From: an uncultured Pseudomonadales bacterium
GTDB lineage: Bacteria; Pseudomonadota; Gammaproteobacteria; Pseudomonadales; Pseudohongiellaceae
Direction of reading: 5' to 3'
Assembly (NCBI GenBank): GCA_947259995.1
Contig: CAMYOK010000006.1
Location: 62,001-126,000 of the forward strand
Length of the DNA stretch: 64,000 nt
A program made the position numbers and the translations under genes. The notes under the pieces are model-generated. The model saw only the letters and a program-made list of their open reading frames with translations, made no database searches and was not told the DNA's origin. This document shows positions 210 through 10,498 of the stretch, piece after piece; position 1 is the stretch's first letter; each line of letters begins with the position of its first letter.

Positions 210-5174
<4,965 letters not shown>

Positions 5175-5218
5175 AATGTTTGCTCATTCGGCACTGTGTC
5201 TTTGGCAGCGCTGTGGTT

Positions 5219-6565
5219 TTATAACTGAAAGTTAAAACCAGCTTGGTATTTGAATCGTGTGAACTCGAAAAGCGGGATATTGCTGCTCGTGTCGTTGTAG
5301 CCCATCTCGCTGTTAAACGATAAACGTTGCGAGTATTGCCATGTCCAGCCTAAAGTCGCGGATAAATTGCCATCGTCACGGACATCGTTGAAAAACACAG
5401 GATGCCTGTCATCGTATTCTGTTGTTTGATAGGACAGACGCACATAGGGGGTGTGCTGGCCATTGAATCGCCACAGTACGCTATGGGCGACGCCGTAAAA
5501 GTTGCGGCCGTTGTGTTCGCCAGCGGAATCTCGCGCTGCGTCTTGGGCATAAAACACCGTAAAGGTATTAGTAAAGCGTTCGCTGAGTTTGGTTAAAGAG
5601 CCAGAGAGCAGTACCTGGTTCGTGTCTTTGAGCTCATTATTTGGTGCCTGGCGCGTATTGACGTTGCGCGTGGTTGATAGCGAGCCGGACAGGCTCTGAT
5701 ACCAACCATTCTGGCCAGCGCGTTGCCAGGAATTATTGAAGCGATAGGTGTCTATAAAGCTTTGCCCGTCGAGGTAGACTTTTTGCGCCTGCAGGCTGTG
5801 GCGGAAACGGTGTGTATTGTTGCCGTAGCTATAGGATAAGTCCCCAAGGGCATAGTCGATATCGAACTGATCGCTACTTTGGTTGTCGTGCCGATTCGCA
5901 ATAACGGTGACGTCGATGCTGCGATCCCGTGTAATGGGTTTTTTGTATCCAAGGCTGACGGTGAGATCGGTGAAGTCGTCTGCTGTTTTAAGGCCTTCTG
6001 AGTTTAGAGTGATTTCACCAATCAAGGGGGTGTCGATTAAGCCATTGCTGGTGGCACTGTTGATGTTGTCATCGTGGCCGAACACCGGAGAGATGGCGAA
6101 GCTGAAGCTAGAGTTTTGGTTTTTCTTGCGTTCATCGATAAGGGTGAGGAAGGCTTGGATATTGCTGCGCACGTTCGCCGGTGGGTTTGTGGCAAGCACC
6201 TGGGTGAATAGGCGTTCAGAGGCCGCTAGGTTGTTGGTGAGCAGGTGGGCCCGGGCAAGTTCCAAACGGGCCCGTTCGCGGGTGACCGGGCGCGACGCTG
6301 TGTTCGCAACTCGTTGAAAAGCGAAAACGGCTTCGTTTGGGTTGCCGCTCTCTATCGCTGCAATACCGTATAAGAAGTCGAAGTCGGTATCACCCTCCCA
6401 AGCGGTCAAATTGCTATCGGCTAGTTGATAGGCATCGGAATAGCGGCCAGCGCTAATCATTTCATTTAGTGCATCAATTGGGGGAGGAGCGCTTTGAGCA
6501 AGCGTCAATGCGGGCATTAGACTTGCGACTAAGAGGGAGAGTAGCGCAGCGCGAGGAGTTCTCAT
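5219..6565 (-). CDS. TPR/beta-barrel outer-membrane protein, SLAM-like (DUF560 type)
   Basis: 448 residues. A signal peptide (about 1-23, ALTLA before QS) is followed by helical tetratricopeptide-like repeats (about 27-150) and then a C-terminal stretch of alternating beta strands (about 155-448) ending in FNFQL, as expected for an outer-membrane barrel. This order, TPR then barrel beginning with a P-x-F-x-H-D-D-N-x-N segment, matches surface lipoprotein assembly modifiers, which move proteins with small C-terminal barrels to the cell surface. The next gene downstream (44 bp) encodes a protein with several barrel-like repeats, a plausible substrate. Another TPR-porin family remains possible. 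It is the first gene of the apparent two-gene unit; no strong promoter is seen upstream. Confidence 0.65.
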   Translation of the reverse strand: MRTPRAALLSLLVASLMPALTLAQSAPPPIDALNEMISAGRYSDAYQLADSNLTAWEGDTDFDFLYGIAAIESGNPNEAVFAFQRVANTASRPVTRERARLELARAHLLTNNLAASERLFTQVLATNPPANVRSNIQAFLTLIDERKKNQNSSFSFAISPVFGHDDNINSATSNGLIDTPLIGEITLNSEGLKTADDFTDLTVSLGYKKPITRDRSIDVTVIANRHDNQSSDQFDIDYALGDLSYSYGNNTHRFRHSLQAQKVYLDGQSFIDTYRFNNSWQRAGQNGWYQSLSGSLSTTRNVNTRQAPNNELKDTNQVLLSGSLTKLSERFTNTFTVFYAQDAARDSAGEHNGRNFYGVAHSVLWRFNGQHTPYVRLSYQTTEYDDRHPVFFNDVRDDGNLSATLGWTWQYSQRLSFNSEMGYNDTSSNIPLFEFTRFKYQAGFNFQL

Positions 6566-7654: not shown

Positions 7655-8428
7655 CTAAATATGCATCGGTTGGATGCGTGGTGGCAACAATGCTGGGCGT
7701 TGCACCGGGCGAATGCGCTGGAACGGAGGAATCTCTGGCCGCTGAATGCGATCGGGGAGGTCGCCGCGCGCCCGACTTGCCTCTTCCTCTTCTGTTTCTG
7801 TCTCTAGCTTCACCGCCATAGTCTCAGCAAGTTGCTGCGGAGCCTCTTCAACGATGTCAGCGGGTTCTTCTCGTACTGCCTCAACAGGCGTTAAGGCTAG
7901 TTGCGGCTGTTCAGCTTCAGGCTTGACCTCGACCTCGACCTCTGGAAGGGCAACTAGTTGCACCGGGGCAGGTTCTTCTTCCACCACCAATGGGGCTTGC
8001 GTCTCTAGGCTACCTTGGGCGATCTCAATGTCGGTTTGGGCGCGCATGGGGTTGCTTTCAATCGTCTCTATGATCTCGTTCTGCAGCGCGCTGTTGGGGG
8101 CTTCTTGTTGAACCGGTGGCACATCTTGAACCGCGATGGCTGGAGCAGGTGTTGTATCGGCTTGTGCGTCCTGGGAAGCTGCGTCCGGTGTGCTCGTATC
8201 AAAGCTAGTGAAAAATGGTGAGGGGCCGCCAGTGCCACCAAAGCCACTGCCGCCAAATTCGCCAGATTTACCGGTGCCACCCATGCCACTGCCGCCATCA
8301 CCGCCGTCACCGCCATTGCGGACTTTGCCTAGGCTACCTGCTGTAATTAGTAAGGTGGCGATAAAGAATAATACCGCTAATAGAATAGTCGCGGGGTAGG
8401 TGCGCATTGCTAGAATTGCTCTAGGCAT
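7655..8428 (-). CDS. Gly-rich then Pro/Glu-rich membrane-anchored hypothetical protein
   Basis: About 257 residues, not recognised. One hydrophobic segment near the N-terminus (TILLAVLFFIATLLITAG) is followed by a Gly-rich block (about 30-75, GGxGG repeats) and then a long acidic/Pro-rich disordered region with many Glu, Gln, Val and Pro. The end is basic and Pro-rich with repeated R-P/I-P motifs. The chosen ATG at 8428 overlaps the DUF6502 stop (ATGCCTAG), which implies translational coupling. An upstream ATG at 8452 is possible. The layout suggests an envelope-tethered, extended protein, perhaps a partner of the DUF6502 protein or of the nearby surface genes; this is inference. Confidence 0.55.
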   Translation of the reverse strand: MPRAILAMRTYPATILLAVLFFIATLLITAGSLGKVRNGGDGGDGGSGMGGTGKSGEFGGSGFGGTGGPSPFFTSFDTSTPDAASQDAQADTTPAPAIAVQDVPPVQQEAPNSALQNEIIETIESNPMRAQTDIEIAQGSLETQAPLVVEEEPAPVQLVALPEVEVEVKPEAEQPQLALTPVEAVREEPADIVEEAPQQLAETMAVKLETETEEEEASRARGDLPDRIQRPEIPPFQRIRPVQRPALLPPRIQPMHI

Positions 8429-9305
8429 CGTGTTCACCTTCGCTGTTTGCACTGTCTGATGGCAGTAGCGCGTTGTAGTTAAAGACCCCGAAATTCATCC
8501 GATAGTTCCTATCGTCCTTGTCTTGATCTTGTTGCTGAAGGGCGAGAGCTGCTTTGTTGATCTTCGTGAGAGCCTGCATCCCCGTGTCATTGGCGATTTC
8601 TGCGAGCTTGGCGATAGACTCTTGGCTTAGCTTGTCATAATAAACACTTCTATCGAAATAGGAAGGTGTATTGCCGAGCAAGTTATGGGCACTAGCACTG
8701 AGATGGTCGTGCAAGTTTTTACCGAAATAGAAGGCTTTTTCATCGAAGCCCTTGTCTGGGGTGAAGGCGCCGGTGTTCAAGCGAATGCGTCCTTCGCTGT
8801 CTTGTGTGGCGATCCCTAGATTTAGCCATTCATCCAGAATAACGCGTGGGCGAATATCTTGTTTGCAGACAAACTCTACGAGATCGTCGAATGTTTTATC
8901 CTGGGTCGGCTTGGATGCGCTGCGAAGGGGCAAGGGCATTGGCTGGCCCTGGCCATCCAAGAACTCTTCGGCCCCTAACCAATAGGCGATTAATTGCGCA
9001 CCGATGGAGATGTTCTTGGGGGCTATCAATTCTTCATTAGCTTCACTGCGCAGTCGTTTTACATCTTTACGGTGAACGCCAGTGAGGAGGGTGATACGGC
9101 TGTCAGTCTGGCGTTTCTCATCGACGGCAAACTCTTCATCGGCCACTTCAACGTAGAGTGATTTGAGAAGATTGACCAAGAAAGGGTAGGTGATCTGGTA
9201 ATGCAGCAGTAGGCGCACTAAAGGCCGTAAAAGCTTACGAATAGCGGCTACCAGCACTGCAGGAGGCTGGGCCGGGTTGCTGATTTGCTCATCTGGCGTA
9301 GTCAT
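8421..9305 (-). CDS. DUF6502 family protein, putative DNA-binding regulator
   Basis: 294 residues from the ATG at 9305. The open frame extends to 9344, but the extra 13 residues overlap an apparent -10 box and operator. Residues around 55-80 (DSRITLLTGVHRKDVKRLR) look like a helix-turn-helix, and the layout fits the DUF6502 family, which has no established function. The C-terminal half is helical and mixed-charge. It is translationally coupled to the Gly/Pro-rich gene downstream. Upstream, a TATACT box (minus strand, 9312-9317) would start transcription about at the ATG, giving a nearly leaderless message, with a 17-bp palindrome (9326-9342) just upstream. Autoregulation is inferred. Confidence 0.65.
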   Translation of the reverse strand: MTTPDEQISNPAQPPAVLVAAIRKLLRPLVRLLLHYQITYPFLVNLLKSLYVEVADEEFAVDEKRQTDSRITLLTGVHRKDVKRLRSEANEELIAPKNISIGAQLIAYWLGAEEFLDGQGQPMPLPLRSASKPTQDKTFDDLVEFVCKQDIRPRVILDEWLNLGIATQDSEGRIRLNTGAFTPDKGFDEKAFYFGKNLHDHLSASAHNLLGNTPSYFDRSVYYDKLSQESIAKLAEIANDTGMQALTKINKAALALQQQDQDKDDRNYRMNFGVFNYNALLPSDSANSEGEHDA

Positions 9306-9325
9306 GGCCGCAGTATAGCGCAAGG

Positions 9326-9342
9326 GTGGGAAACTATCCCAC
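9326..9342. promoter_or_regulatory. 17-bp palindromic operator upstream of the DUF6502 gene
   Basis: GTGGGAAACTATCCCAC. The arms GTGGGA and TCCCAC are perfect reverse complements around 5 bp. It lies 21 bp upstream of the DUF6502 start, over the region where its -35/spacer should be. A near-identical palindrome occurs 94 bp away in the opposite gene's promoter. Confidence 0.6.
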
Positions 9343-9381
9343 ATCTTTATTTGCGCAATTAAATTTCATGTGTTGCCCGCG

Positions 9382-9397
9382 AGTGATCGAGATCACT
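9382..9397. promoter_or_regulatory. CRP/Vfr-like binding site
   Basis: AGTGATCGAGATCACT, a two-fold symmetric sequence matching the GTGA-N6-TCAC core of CRP-family sites. Its centre is about 61 bp upstream of the start predicted from the adjacent promoter, the classical class I activator position. Confidence 0.6.
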
Positions 9398-9414
9398 TTT
9401 CGGACTTTATTGTG

Positions 9415-9443
9415 TTGACGTGGGAATTATTCCCACCTATTAT
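9415..9443 (+). promoter_or_regulatory. Sigma70 promoter of the hydrolase-fold gene
   Basis: TTGACG (9415-9420), a 17-bp spacer and TATTAT (9438-9443). The spacer is almost wholly a palindrome (9420-9436). This drives the gene starting at 9506 and leaves a leader of about 55 nt. Confidence 0.65.
9420..9436. promoter_or_regulatory. Second 17-bp palindromic operator inside the promoter spacer
   Basis: GTGGGAATTATTCCCAC, same arms as the palindrome at 9326-9342 and likewise 17 bp long. A protein bound here would block RNA polymerase. The neighbouring DUF6502 protein is the obvious candidate ligand; this is inference. Confidence 0.6.
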
Positions 9444-9505: not shown

Positions 9506-10498
9506 ATGCAATCACACATCTTGGACAAACGCTTAAGCACCATCGTCCCACTAGACGTTGAGCGCGATGCTGAAAATGTTCGCTTAATGCAAATGCAAGA
9601 TGGCAGGCGTTTAGCCTACACCGAGTATGGTGATCGTAATGCCTACCCCCTCATTCATTGCCACAGTCATGGCAGCTCCCGCTTAGAGGCCGCTAGTTTT
9701 CATAAAGCGGCGATCGCCTATGGATTTCGCATCATTGCGGTAGACCGGCCGGGCGTTGGCCTTTCAGATTTCATCGAACAGCAGGCAGTGCAAGGCTTTG
9801 CACAGGACTTGCTAGCATTAGCGGATAAACTGCGTTGTAAACAATTTGGGCTCTTAGCCAACGGCGCAGGTGCGAGCTATGCATTGGCTTTGGCGGCAAT
9901 GGCGCCTGAGCGTGTACAAGTGGTACTGGGCTTGTCTTGCCAGTTCCCTATGATGACCAAGGCTAGCGCCTTGCTGCGTAAATCTGCGGCTATTGCCATT
10001 AGGCTGTCGATTTACTGTCGGCATTTTGTGGCCTCGCATACGCCGAGCCGTTACTTGCCGCGTATTCTGGATACGCTCTCGTTTGCCGATAAACGCCTAC
10101 TGGATAATCCAAAACTACTCGCCTATGTTGAAAACGATATGAAAGAGTCACTGCGGCAGGGTGTGAAAGGGCTCGCTCAAGACAGCGCGCTACAATTTAG
10201 CCACACCGCCATGGATTATTCGCGTTTGCAGATGCCTTGTCATTTTTGGCAGGGCAGTGCCGATTGCCGTCGCACTCGTCATTTGGCGGAGAGTTTTATC
10301 GCTCGCTGTCCGCAAGGCAGTTTGCACGAGCTTGCTAACCGCGGCCGGTATTTTTATCTGCGTAATGTCGAGAATGTGTTGGCGAGTGCCAATCATTTGC
10401 TGGGGCGGGAGCAGAGCAAAATCCCTTCAAACTCAGTGTACTTCAATCACGCTACACCAAAGAACCTAGTGGACCAGGTTAAAACCGCCAACCTTTAA
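9506..10498 (+). CDS. Alpha/beta-hydrolase-fold protein with degenerate catalytic triad
   Basis: 330 residues. The fold markers are clear: DGRRLAYTEYGD start, an HCHSHGSSR oxyanion-type loop, IIAVDRPGVGLSD, and a helix ASYALALAAMAPERV after the nucleophile elbow. The elbow reads L-A-N-G-A-G-A where active relatives have a G-x-S-x-G. Aligning on the following YALALA helix puts Gly in place of Ser. The usual C-terminal G-H-F reads G-R-Y, so the His also seems lost; an acid (SADCRRTR) remains. The protein may be a non-enzymatic relative. Its promoter has a CRP-like site and a palindromic operator. It ends tail-to-tail with the HD-GYP gene, sharing the palindromic stop TTAA. Confidence 0.7.
   Translation: MQSHILDKRLSTIVPLDVERDAENVRLMQMQDGRRLAYTEYGDRNAYPLIHCHSHGSSRLEAASFHKAAIAYGFRIIAVDRPGVGLSDFIEQQAVQGFAQDLLALADKLRCKQFGLLANGAGASYALALAAMAPERVQVVLGLSCQFPMMTKASALLRKSAAIAIRLSIYCRHFVASHTPSRYLPRILDTLSFADKRLLDNPKLLAYVENDMKESLRQGVKGLAQDSALQFSHTAMDYSRLQMPCHFWQGSADCRRTRHLAESFIARCPQGSLHELANRGRYFYLRNVENVLASANHLLGREQSKIPSNSVYFNHATPKNLVDQVKTANL

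Follow-up and report, generated by a model that had tools for sequence, protein, structure and literature searches.

The intergenic region between two divergent genes in the window, the 64,000-nucleotide stretch of an uncultured Pseudomonadales genome analysed here, carries a pair of identical palindromes and raises the question of which regulator, if any, they serve. One gene encodes a DUF6502 protein and the other an alpha/beta-hydrolase, and the original prediction had been that the palindromes are DUF6502 sites. Our analysis favors the view, with a probability of about 0.83, that DUF6502 is a helix-turn-helix (HTH) regulator, probably a dimer, that recognizes inverted TGGGA half-sites and most likely represses both promoters in the window. 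The features are as follows:

9326–9342, no strand: operator 1, GTGGGAAACTATCCCAC, an exact GTGGGA-N5-TCCCAC that covers the −35 position of the DUF6502 promoter
9420–9436, no strand: operator 2, GTGGGAATTATTCCCAC, an exact GTGGGA-N5-TCCCAC in the −35/−10 spacer of the divergent hydrolase promoter
9415–9420, plus strand: predicted −35 hexamer TTGACG of the hydrolase promoter, from the sequence; TTGAC is conserved in relatives
9438–9443, plus strand: predicted −10 hexamer TATTAT of the hydrolase promoter, from the sequence; a −10-like hexamer (at most two mismatches to TATAAT) is present in relatives
9312–9317, minus strand: predicted −10 hexamer TATACT of the DUF6502 gene, from the sequence; a TATA is likewise placed in most relatives printed
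9506–10498, plus strand: divergent alpha/beta-hydrolase gene (Pfam Abhydrolase_6), predicted target of operator 2
8421–9305, minus strand: DUF6502 (PF20112) gene, proposed regulator, 294 aa, identified by Pfam, alignment and a conserved ATG at 9305
9045–9104, minus strand: codons of the predicted HTH (residues 68–87, DSRITLLTGVHRKDVKRLRS), from AF2 helices and near-invariant residues
7655–8428, minus strand: next gene of a presumed operon, encoding an N-terminal hydrophobic stretch and then GxGGTG repeats; from the ORF, the repeats and their linkage

Two palindromes over a divergent promoter pair

Both palindromes are 17 bp long, with identical 6-bp arms and 5-bp spacers, and their starts are 94 bp apart, as had been described. 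That the window holds no third copy was also borne out: there are two exact matches, and the third match (37762) has two mismatches. Since three matches with up to two mismatches compare with 1.44 expected by chance, only the two exact copies stand out. The same two are the only exact copies of GTGGGA-N5-TCCCAC in the window's genome, which is 93% complete. One-mismatch sites add eight more to this genome, and because the resulting total of ten, including the two exact sites, is barely above the six found with a reversed-pattern control, these sites are not trustworthy singly.

The placement of the palindromes agrees with the original prediction. Operator 2 fills the 17-bp spacer of a TTGACG/TATTAT promoter, and the G with which it begins also ends the −35 hexamer; operator 1 lies just upstream of TATACT, at a distance of 8 bp and over the −35 position. 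Both promoter arrangements were seen again in relatives, and a comparison of upstream regions showed that the position of operator 1 is conserved; the flanks around the palindromes have diverged among the relatives, while the palindromes were kept. The DUF6502 promoter has no clear −35 element. Its TATACT ends 6 nt from the ATG at 9305, with similar spacing in most relatives printed, and the DUF6502 mRNA is therefore probably leaderless. A mechanical ORF call places the start at 9344, just past operator 1, so that the ORF would run through the operator; the start conserved in relatives is 9305, not 9344.

The layout at operator 2 was defined as TTGAC directly before the operator and a −10-like hexamer (at most two mismatches to TATAAT) at its end or one base past it. 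It was found in 34 of 70 aligned loci, with one operator in each. Counted by operator, 34 of 114 lay in the spacer of a TTGAC/−10 promoter, versus 100 of about 44,200 for the remaining offset-strand positions of these regions. Repression is the likely outcome of such an arrangement, because a protein on operator 2 would occupy the stretch between the two hexamers of a well-formed promoter. DUF6502 would thus bind both sites, operator 1 at the promoter of its own gene and operator 2 in the hydrolase −35/−10 spacer, and RNA polymerase would most likely be shut out at both, resulting in autoregulation, which we infer to be negative, and co-regulation with the hydrolase.

We also considered whether the palindrome acts not as a DNA operator, but as a hairpin in a leader RNA (GUGGGA-loop-UCCCAC). 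The arms are complementary, and several of the remote sites described below lie 10–63 bp from start codons. However, the predicted transcription start lies downstream of operator 2 in 34 loci, and one-sided arm changes that would break a hairpin have been kept, such as GAGGGA...TCCCAC in L023–L025, making an RNA element highly improbable.

Two further properties of the region were noted. A CRP-like palindrome, AGTGATCGAGATCACT, is located between the operators at 9382–9397, about 60 bp upstream of the predicted hydrolase start, and similar sequences are found in L006–L008; matches of such quality numbered 17 in the window versus 26 expected by chance. The spacing of 43 operator pairs had a mean near whole helical turns at 10.5 bp (R 0.40), and this phasing was not counted as significant because R was 0.33 on the 20 unique spacings.

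Conservation of the sites with DUF6502

A protein search identified DUF6502 homologues in 28 of 57 relatives, the window's genome included. The palindrome was present upstream, with at most one mismatch, in all 26 of the loci L005–L030, and 19 of these had two copies, while L031 and three distant paralogues (L032–L034) had no site within three mismatches. The divergent DUF6502/hydrolase pair is conserved in L005–L021 and L028–L030. In L022–L027, no divergent hydrolase was detected within the 1.5-kb flank and the palindrome persists, indicating that the site goes with DUF6502.

The comparison was extended by scanning a collection with one genome per species, which gave 440 relatives. The best 80 of the 440 were used, some of them from genomes shared with the set of 57, and 70 of the 80 were aligned with the window protein (nine were left out for brevity, and L188 because of a stop codon). 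Within the 330 bp upstream of the matched stretch, 68 of the 70 aligned homologues had a site with up to two mismatches: 48 exact, 19 with one mismatch and one (L190) with two. L149 and L176 had no site within two mismatches in this interval. Of the 70, 45 had at least two sites with no more than one mismatch, and the homologues with a site belong to the Alpha-, Beta- and Gammaproteobacteria. A partly overlapping count, made on the 72 of 80 loci that remained after the ORF caller missed eight, gave a site in 71 of 72 called genes (48 exact, 21 with one mismatch, two with two, and one gene with none). Random 360-bp windows from the same loci served as a control and yielded 17 sites in 1157 windows, seven of them exact, of which some are perhaps real sites. 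The motif is thus present upstream of DUF6502 orthologues, the opposite of the outcome that the original prediction had set against itself, and the assignment of the palindromes as predicted DUF6502 sites is supported. That the two palindromes arose by chance, or are a functionless local repeat, would fit with the presence of only two exact copies in the window's genome, but sites with zero or one mismatch upstream of 67 of 70 homologues in three classes, amid diverged flanks, leave such an origin with a negligible probability.

The exact AT-centred motif, GTGGGAWWWWWTCCCAC, was then counted in whole genomes. It occurred in 20 of the 57 relatives, all 20 of which have a DUF6502 homologue, and in none of the 29 relatives without one. 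In a sample of 293 genomes from the order, the motif was found in 15, every one among the 46 genomes with PF20112, and in none of the 247 without DUF6502; a reversed control gave three sites in the 293 genomes. By our assignment, a protein of the window's clade (the N5 clade) is encoded in 19 genomes of this sample (20 counting the divergent G070), and 13 of them have the exact motif. The two others with the motif, G075 and G250, have only the other clade's DUF6502, and their copies are inside called ORFs, at about chance level. Fisher P values overstate independence here because the genomes are related, and neither these co-occurrence counts nor the conservation counts are independent, genomes and homologues both being related.

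Outside the window's clade, the half-sites have a different spacing. TGGGA-N6-TCCCA was found beside the start in 23 of 38 DUF6502 loci (at most one mismatch), compared to two of 546 control windows; it was wanting in the other 15, and the N5 form was found in none of the 38. (Four further loci were missed by the ORF caller.) Four exact copies of TTTGGGAWWWWWWTCCCAAA (TTTGGGA-W6-TCCCAAA) were found among the 293 genomes, each a short distance ahead of a DUF6502 gene, versus three sites for the reversed control. Among 165 distinct homologues, 107 had the N5 core, 30 the N6 core, one both and 27 neither (at most one mismatch), and on a FastTree tree with 137 labels the N5/N6 label changes only twice, one change being the odd locus L149. 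A phylum-wide sample contained PF20112 in 21 of 398 genomes; the 21 loci read besides the window's own included 13 with the N5 core (one of which, in G070, also belongs to the order sample), one with N6 and seven with neither. The window's clade would thus recognize TGGGA half-sites 5 bp apart, as GTGGGA-N5-TCCCAC, and the second clade half-sites 6 bp apart, as TGGGA-N6-TCCCA, with TTTGGGA-N6-TCCCAAA as the fullest form. The operator interpretation is supported for much of the DUF6502 family.

DUF6502 is also encoded in 75 plasmid records, 66 of them from Rhizobium. Among six plasmid loci read, exact sites are present at the Azospirillum, Methylocystis and Microvirga loci, whereas the three Rhizobium loci have no site within one mismatch across about 7.6 kb. 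Because the helix is retained in the Rhizobium proteins and a frame containing GGTG comes next, this lineage appears either to have lost the site or to control other promoters. Two of the site-less, plasmid-borne Rhizobium DUF6502-DUF5666 operons (L217 and L218) are located beside flagellar hook and chemotaxis genes. Two phage records carry a distant DUF6502 relative with 30% identity over 69% of the query, one location being CAKLQH020000029.1:1144-1722 of Acinetobacter phage MD-2021a.

The three site-less Rhizobium loci would be compatible with a scenario in which a different regulator bound the palindromes and controlled the DUF6502 gene among others, DUF6502 being merely a target. Against this stand the confinement of the exact motif in the order sample to genomes with DUF6502 (the copies in G075 and G250 being chance-like and within ORFs), the fact that the N5 or N6 form follows the DUF6502 clade, and the nature of the conserved neighbour, a GxGGTG protein rather than a recognized transcription factor. 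We consider a separate regulator improbable, and DUF6502 itself the preferred candidate.

Predicted fold of DUF6502 and its likeness to HetR

The window protein scored 116.5 bits against PF20112, above the Pfam gathering score of 27, and all 71 rows of the protein alignment matched the family. The AF2 model of the full protein had a mean pLDDT of 82, with helices at residues 40–58, 68–75 and 79–87 and a block pLDDT of 84–94 over residues 61–90. The HTH-like segment noted in the original prediction corresponds to a predicted HTH at residues 68–87 in this model. Residues 39–93 could be aligned, at Z ≈6 to 7, with HTH segments from sigma factors, TrpR and IscR, and DUF6502 is thus predicted to fit the trihelical HTH class, with a conserved recognition helix. 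A PDB search with the DUF6502 profile returned no solved structure by sequence up to E 1. The literature and database searches made found no function, target or solved structure for the PF20112 family, and no mention of DUF6502 or of the operator strings tried was found in the open-licence PMC literature.

TetR and MarR-type autorepressors provide a familiar parallel, with divergent promoters and palindromic operators over promoter elements beside the regulator's own gene. In contrast, none of the 71 DUF6502 members matches a Pfam HTH family better than E 0.01, and the half-sites of TetR/MarR-type regulators are not known to resemble the TGGGA half-site of DUF6502.

Co-variation between the recognition helix and the site was also considered: L160, L162, L168 and L173 combine GTGTGA half-sites with a changed helix (LLSGVHRKDVKRLG). 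This was not taken as evidence, because GTGTGA half-sites go with different helices in L165, L172 and L200, and in L169 an ordinary site accompanies the RLG ending.

HetR is the best fold match to DUF6502 in the model comparisons, and sequence profiles do not confirm kinship. HetR is the master regulator of heterocyst formation in cyanobacteria, where it is known mainly as an activator, and it pairs with PatS/PatX, which carry the peptide motif RG[S/T]GR. With the full DUF6502 model, Foldseek placed HetR first (probability 0.77, E 0.015), and VIA gave HetR a Z of 7.0, tied with sigma-factor HTH rows (6.9). A separate model of residues 97–294 was also made (mean pLDDT 78). Its top five rows in VIA were all HetR entries, with Z from 8.0 to 6.9, and the next unrelated fold had 6.4; a Z near 8 is at the edge of the range reached by common folds. 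The best HetR row had an rmsd of 2.4 over 77 residues, matching DUF6502 97–185 to HetR 98–219. Foldseek again placed HetR first, but with an E of 0.2 and a probability of 0.21, and E was never below 0.001 in either model. For a flap-domain fold after the DNA-binding domain, the VIA rows speak in favour of HetR, and the sigma-factor tie and the Foldseek E values speak against reading much into them. The HetR structures were PDB entries 3qod, 4j00, 4hri and 4yrv.

The likeness to HetR bears on the sign of regulation. DUF6502 might bind the operators and activate, as HetR does at many promoters; its closest fold match is a protein known mainly as an activator, and operator 1 could serve activation because the DUF6502 promoter has no clear −35 element. 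However, operator 2 separates a near-consensus −35 from a −10 element by the optimal 17 bp, a repressor geometry that 34 of 70 loci retain, and we regard activation as unlikely and repression as the preferred reading for both promoters.

At the sequence level, kinship between DUF6502 and HetR was not confirmed: three versions of an hhalign comparison gave a best E of 0.21, with a score within the null. The HetR profile contained only two near-identical sequences. The null consisted of 150 random ORFs from the studied loci, of which 47 with a profile probability of at least 50 were taken as DUF6502 and dropped; of the remaining 103, 29 equalled or exceeded the HetR score against the N6 clade, none of them with an alignment of 100 columns or more. 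HetR_C (PF18460) had no match in the 71 DUF6502 members at E up to 10, and none in the window's genome. No HetR relatives for a deeper profile were found in plasmids or viral contigs. The terms HetR-like and HetR homologue were not found in the open-licence PMC literature, and a looser search of the same literature gave no proteobacterial HetR, judged by title among the matches listed, which dealt with nitrogen fixers and in one case with heterocysts.

HetR is described as requiring GGG-N5-CCC and as being released from DNA by the peptide ERGSGR (PMC4649674; PMC4192349). DUF6502 has a similar length, with its HTH at a similar place, and HetR has a 17-bp G-triplet palindrome in the hetP promoter and its own gene as a target (PMC4649674; PMC4192349). 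The spacing differs, however: DUF6502 sites read GGG-N7-CCC in the N5 clade and GGG-N8-CCC in the N6 clade, not the GGG-N5-CCC described for HetR (PMC4649674).

The gene that follows DUF6502 encodes the GxGGTG-repeat protein, and its ORF (7655–8428) and the end of the DUF6502 gene overlap by 8 bp. For the N5 clade, 63 of 68 loci encode GxGGTG in the 2.2 kb that follow DUF6502 (two of the 70 loci were too short; the misses were L149, L177, L180, L182 and L191), compared to one of 64 on the upstream side and two of 38 in the other clade. Ten GxGGTG proteins were included in a Pfam scan: eight had DUF5666 above the cut-off, and the protein of L148 and the window's own had no family above it. In records of Azospirillum, Methylocystis, R. 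etli and R. leguminosarum, a DUF5666 gene comes next and overlaps DUF6502 by 4 bp. The GxGGTG protein is probably exported, because the window's protein has an N-terminal hydrophobic stretch. DUF5666 is mentioned in four papers of the open-licence PMC literature, and searches for GGTG repeat strings there gave unrelated-looking titles among the matches listed.

Taken with the fold match, this linkage (63 of 68 versus 1 of 64) is the evidence for a bolder reading, in which DUF6502 would be a non-cyanobacterial regulator of the HetR kind, controlled by GxGGTG as a short glycine-rich peptide motif of the protein encoded directly downstream, resembling the pairing of HetR with PatS/PatX. Peptide binding is speculation, and this reading is doubtful.

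Remote sites and a possible regulon

In N5-clade genomes, 13 exact sites are located on a different contig from the DUF6502 gene or at a distance of over 1 kb from it. Nine are 10–132 bp upstream of a called start, and the other four (L075, two in L079, and L087) overlap the 5′ end of a mechanical ORF, with a plausible start just downstream as judged by eye. In the order sample, nine remote sites compare with ≈0.2 expected from the reversed control.

Ten target proteins were subjected to a Pfam scan; exact sites accounted for six of them and one-mismatch sites in the window's genome for the other four. The targets at exact sites were Beta_propel proteins in two bacterial families (L073 and L083), a trypsin (L080, in G301), a 7TM-transglutaminase/ATP-grasp protein (L078, in G182) and a DUF5648 protein (L087, in G006); the L085 target had no Pfam family. 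The one-mismatch targets were another DUF5648 protein (L040), a reprolysin-like protease (L038), an RTX-repeat protein (L035) and a mannosyltransferase-like protein (L036). Judged by N-termini, the trypsin-like and 7TM genes have similar-looking, site-bearing counterparts in the sister genome (G182 and G301), as do L085 and L086, whose similar-looking counterparts also have sites. The remote exact copies sit at the starts of genes whose products mostly appear to be secreted or to belong to the envelope, which suggests a trans regulon, and in several genomes DUF6502 may act on such remote genes as well as at its own locus.

In G010, a third exact palindrome (L084:3186-3202) is found within the DUF6502 cluster, between outer-membrane-protein and TPR genes. 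The equivalent place in the window has no match within three mismatches. Beside the cluster in the window, positions 210–6565 encode a TPR/DUF2860 protein and a FecR-domain protein of 1654 aa that contains a long EP-rich repeat.

Computation shows where the sites lie, that they are conserved and occur together with DUF6502, and that their spacing is clade-specific, and it predicts an HTH; from these results we infer that DUF6502 binds the DNA directly, forms a dimer and represses rather than activates. DUF6502 appears to be a regulator family, because related palindromes precede its genes widely and its predicted shape resembles HetR. A family of no assigned function, present in several classes of Pseudomonadota, thereby gains a testable role as predicted transcription regulators, with a predicted DNA code of TGGGA half-sites and a 5- or 6-bp spacer depending on clade, and with secreted proteases and envelope proteins such as lipoproteins in its predicted regulon. 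The linked GxGGTG/DUF5666 protein family is brought to attention as well. If the HetR fold match holds, the flap/hood regulator, whose folds were described as novel in cyanobacteria, has proteobacterial relatives, and if the bolder reading were true, a GxGGTG regulator-peptide circuit would be widespread in the Alpha-, Beta- and Gammaproteobacteria.
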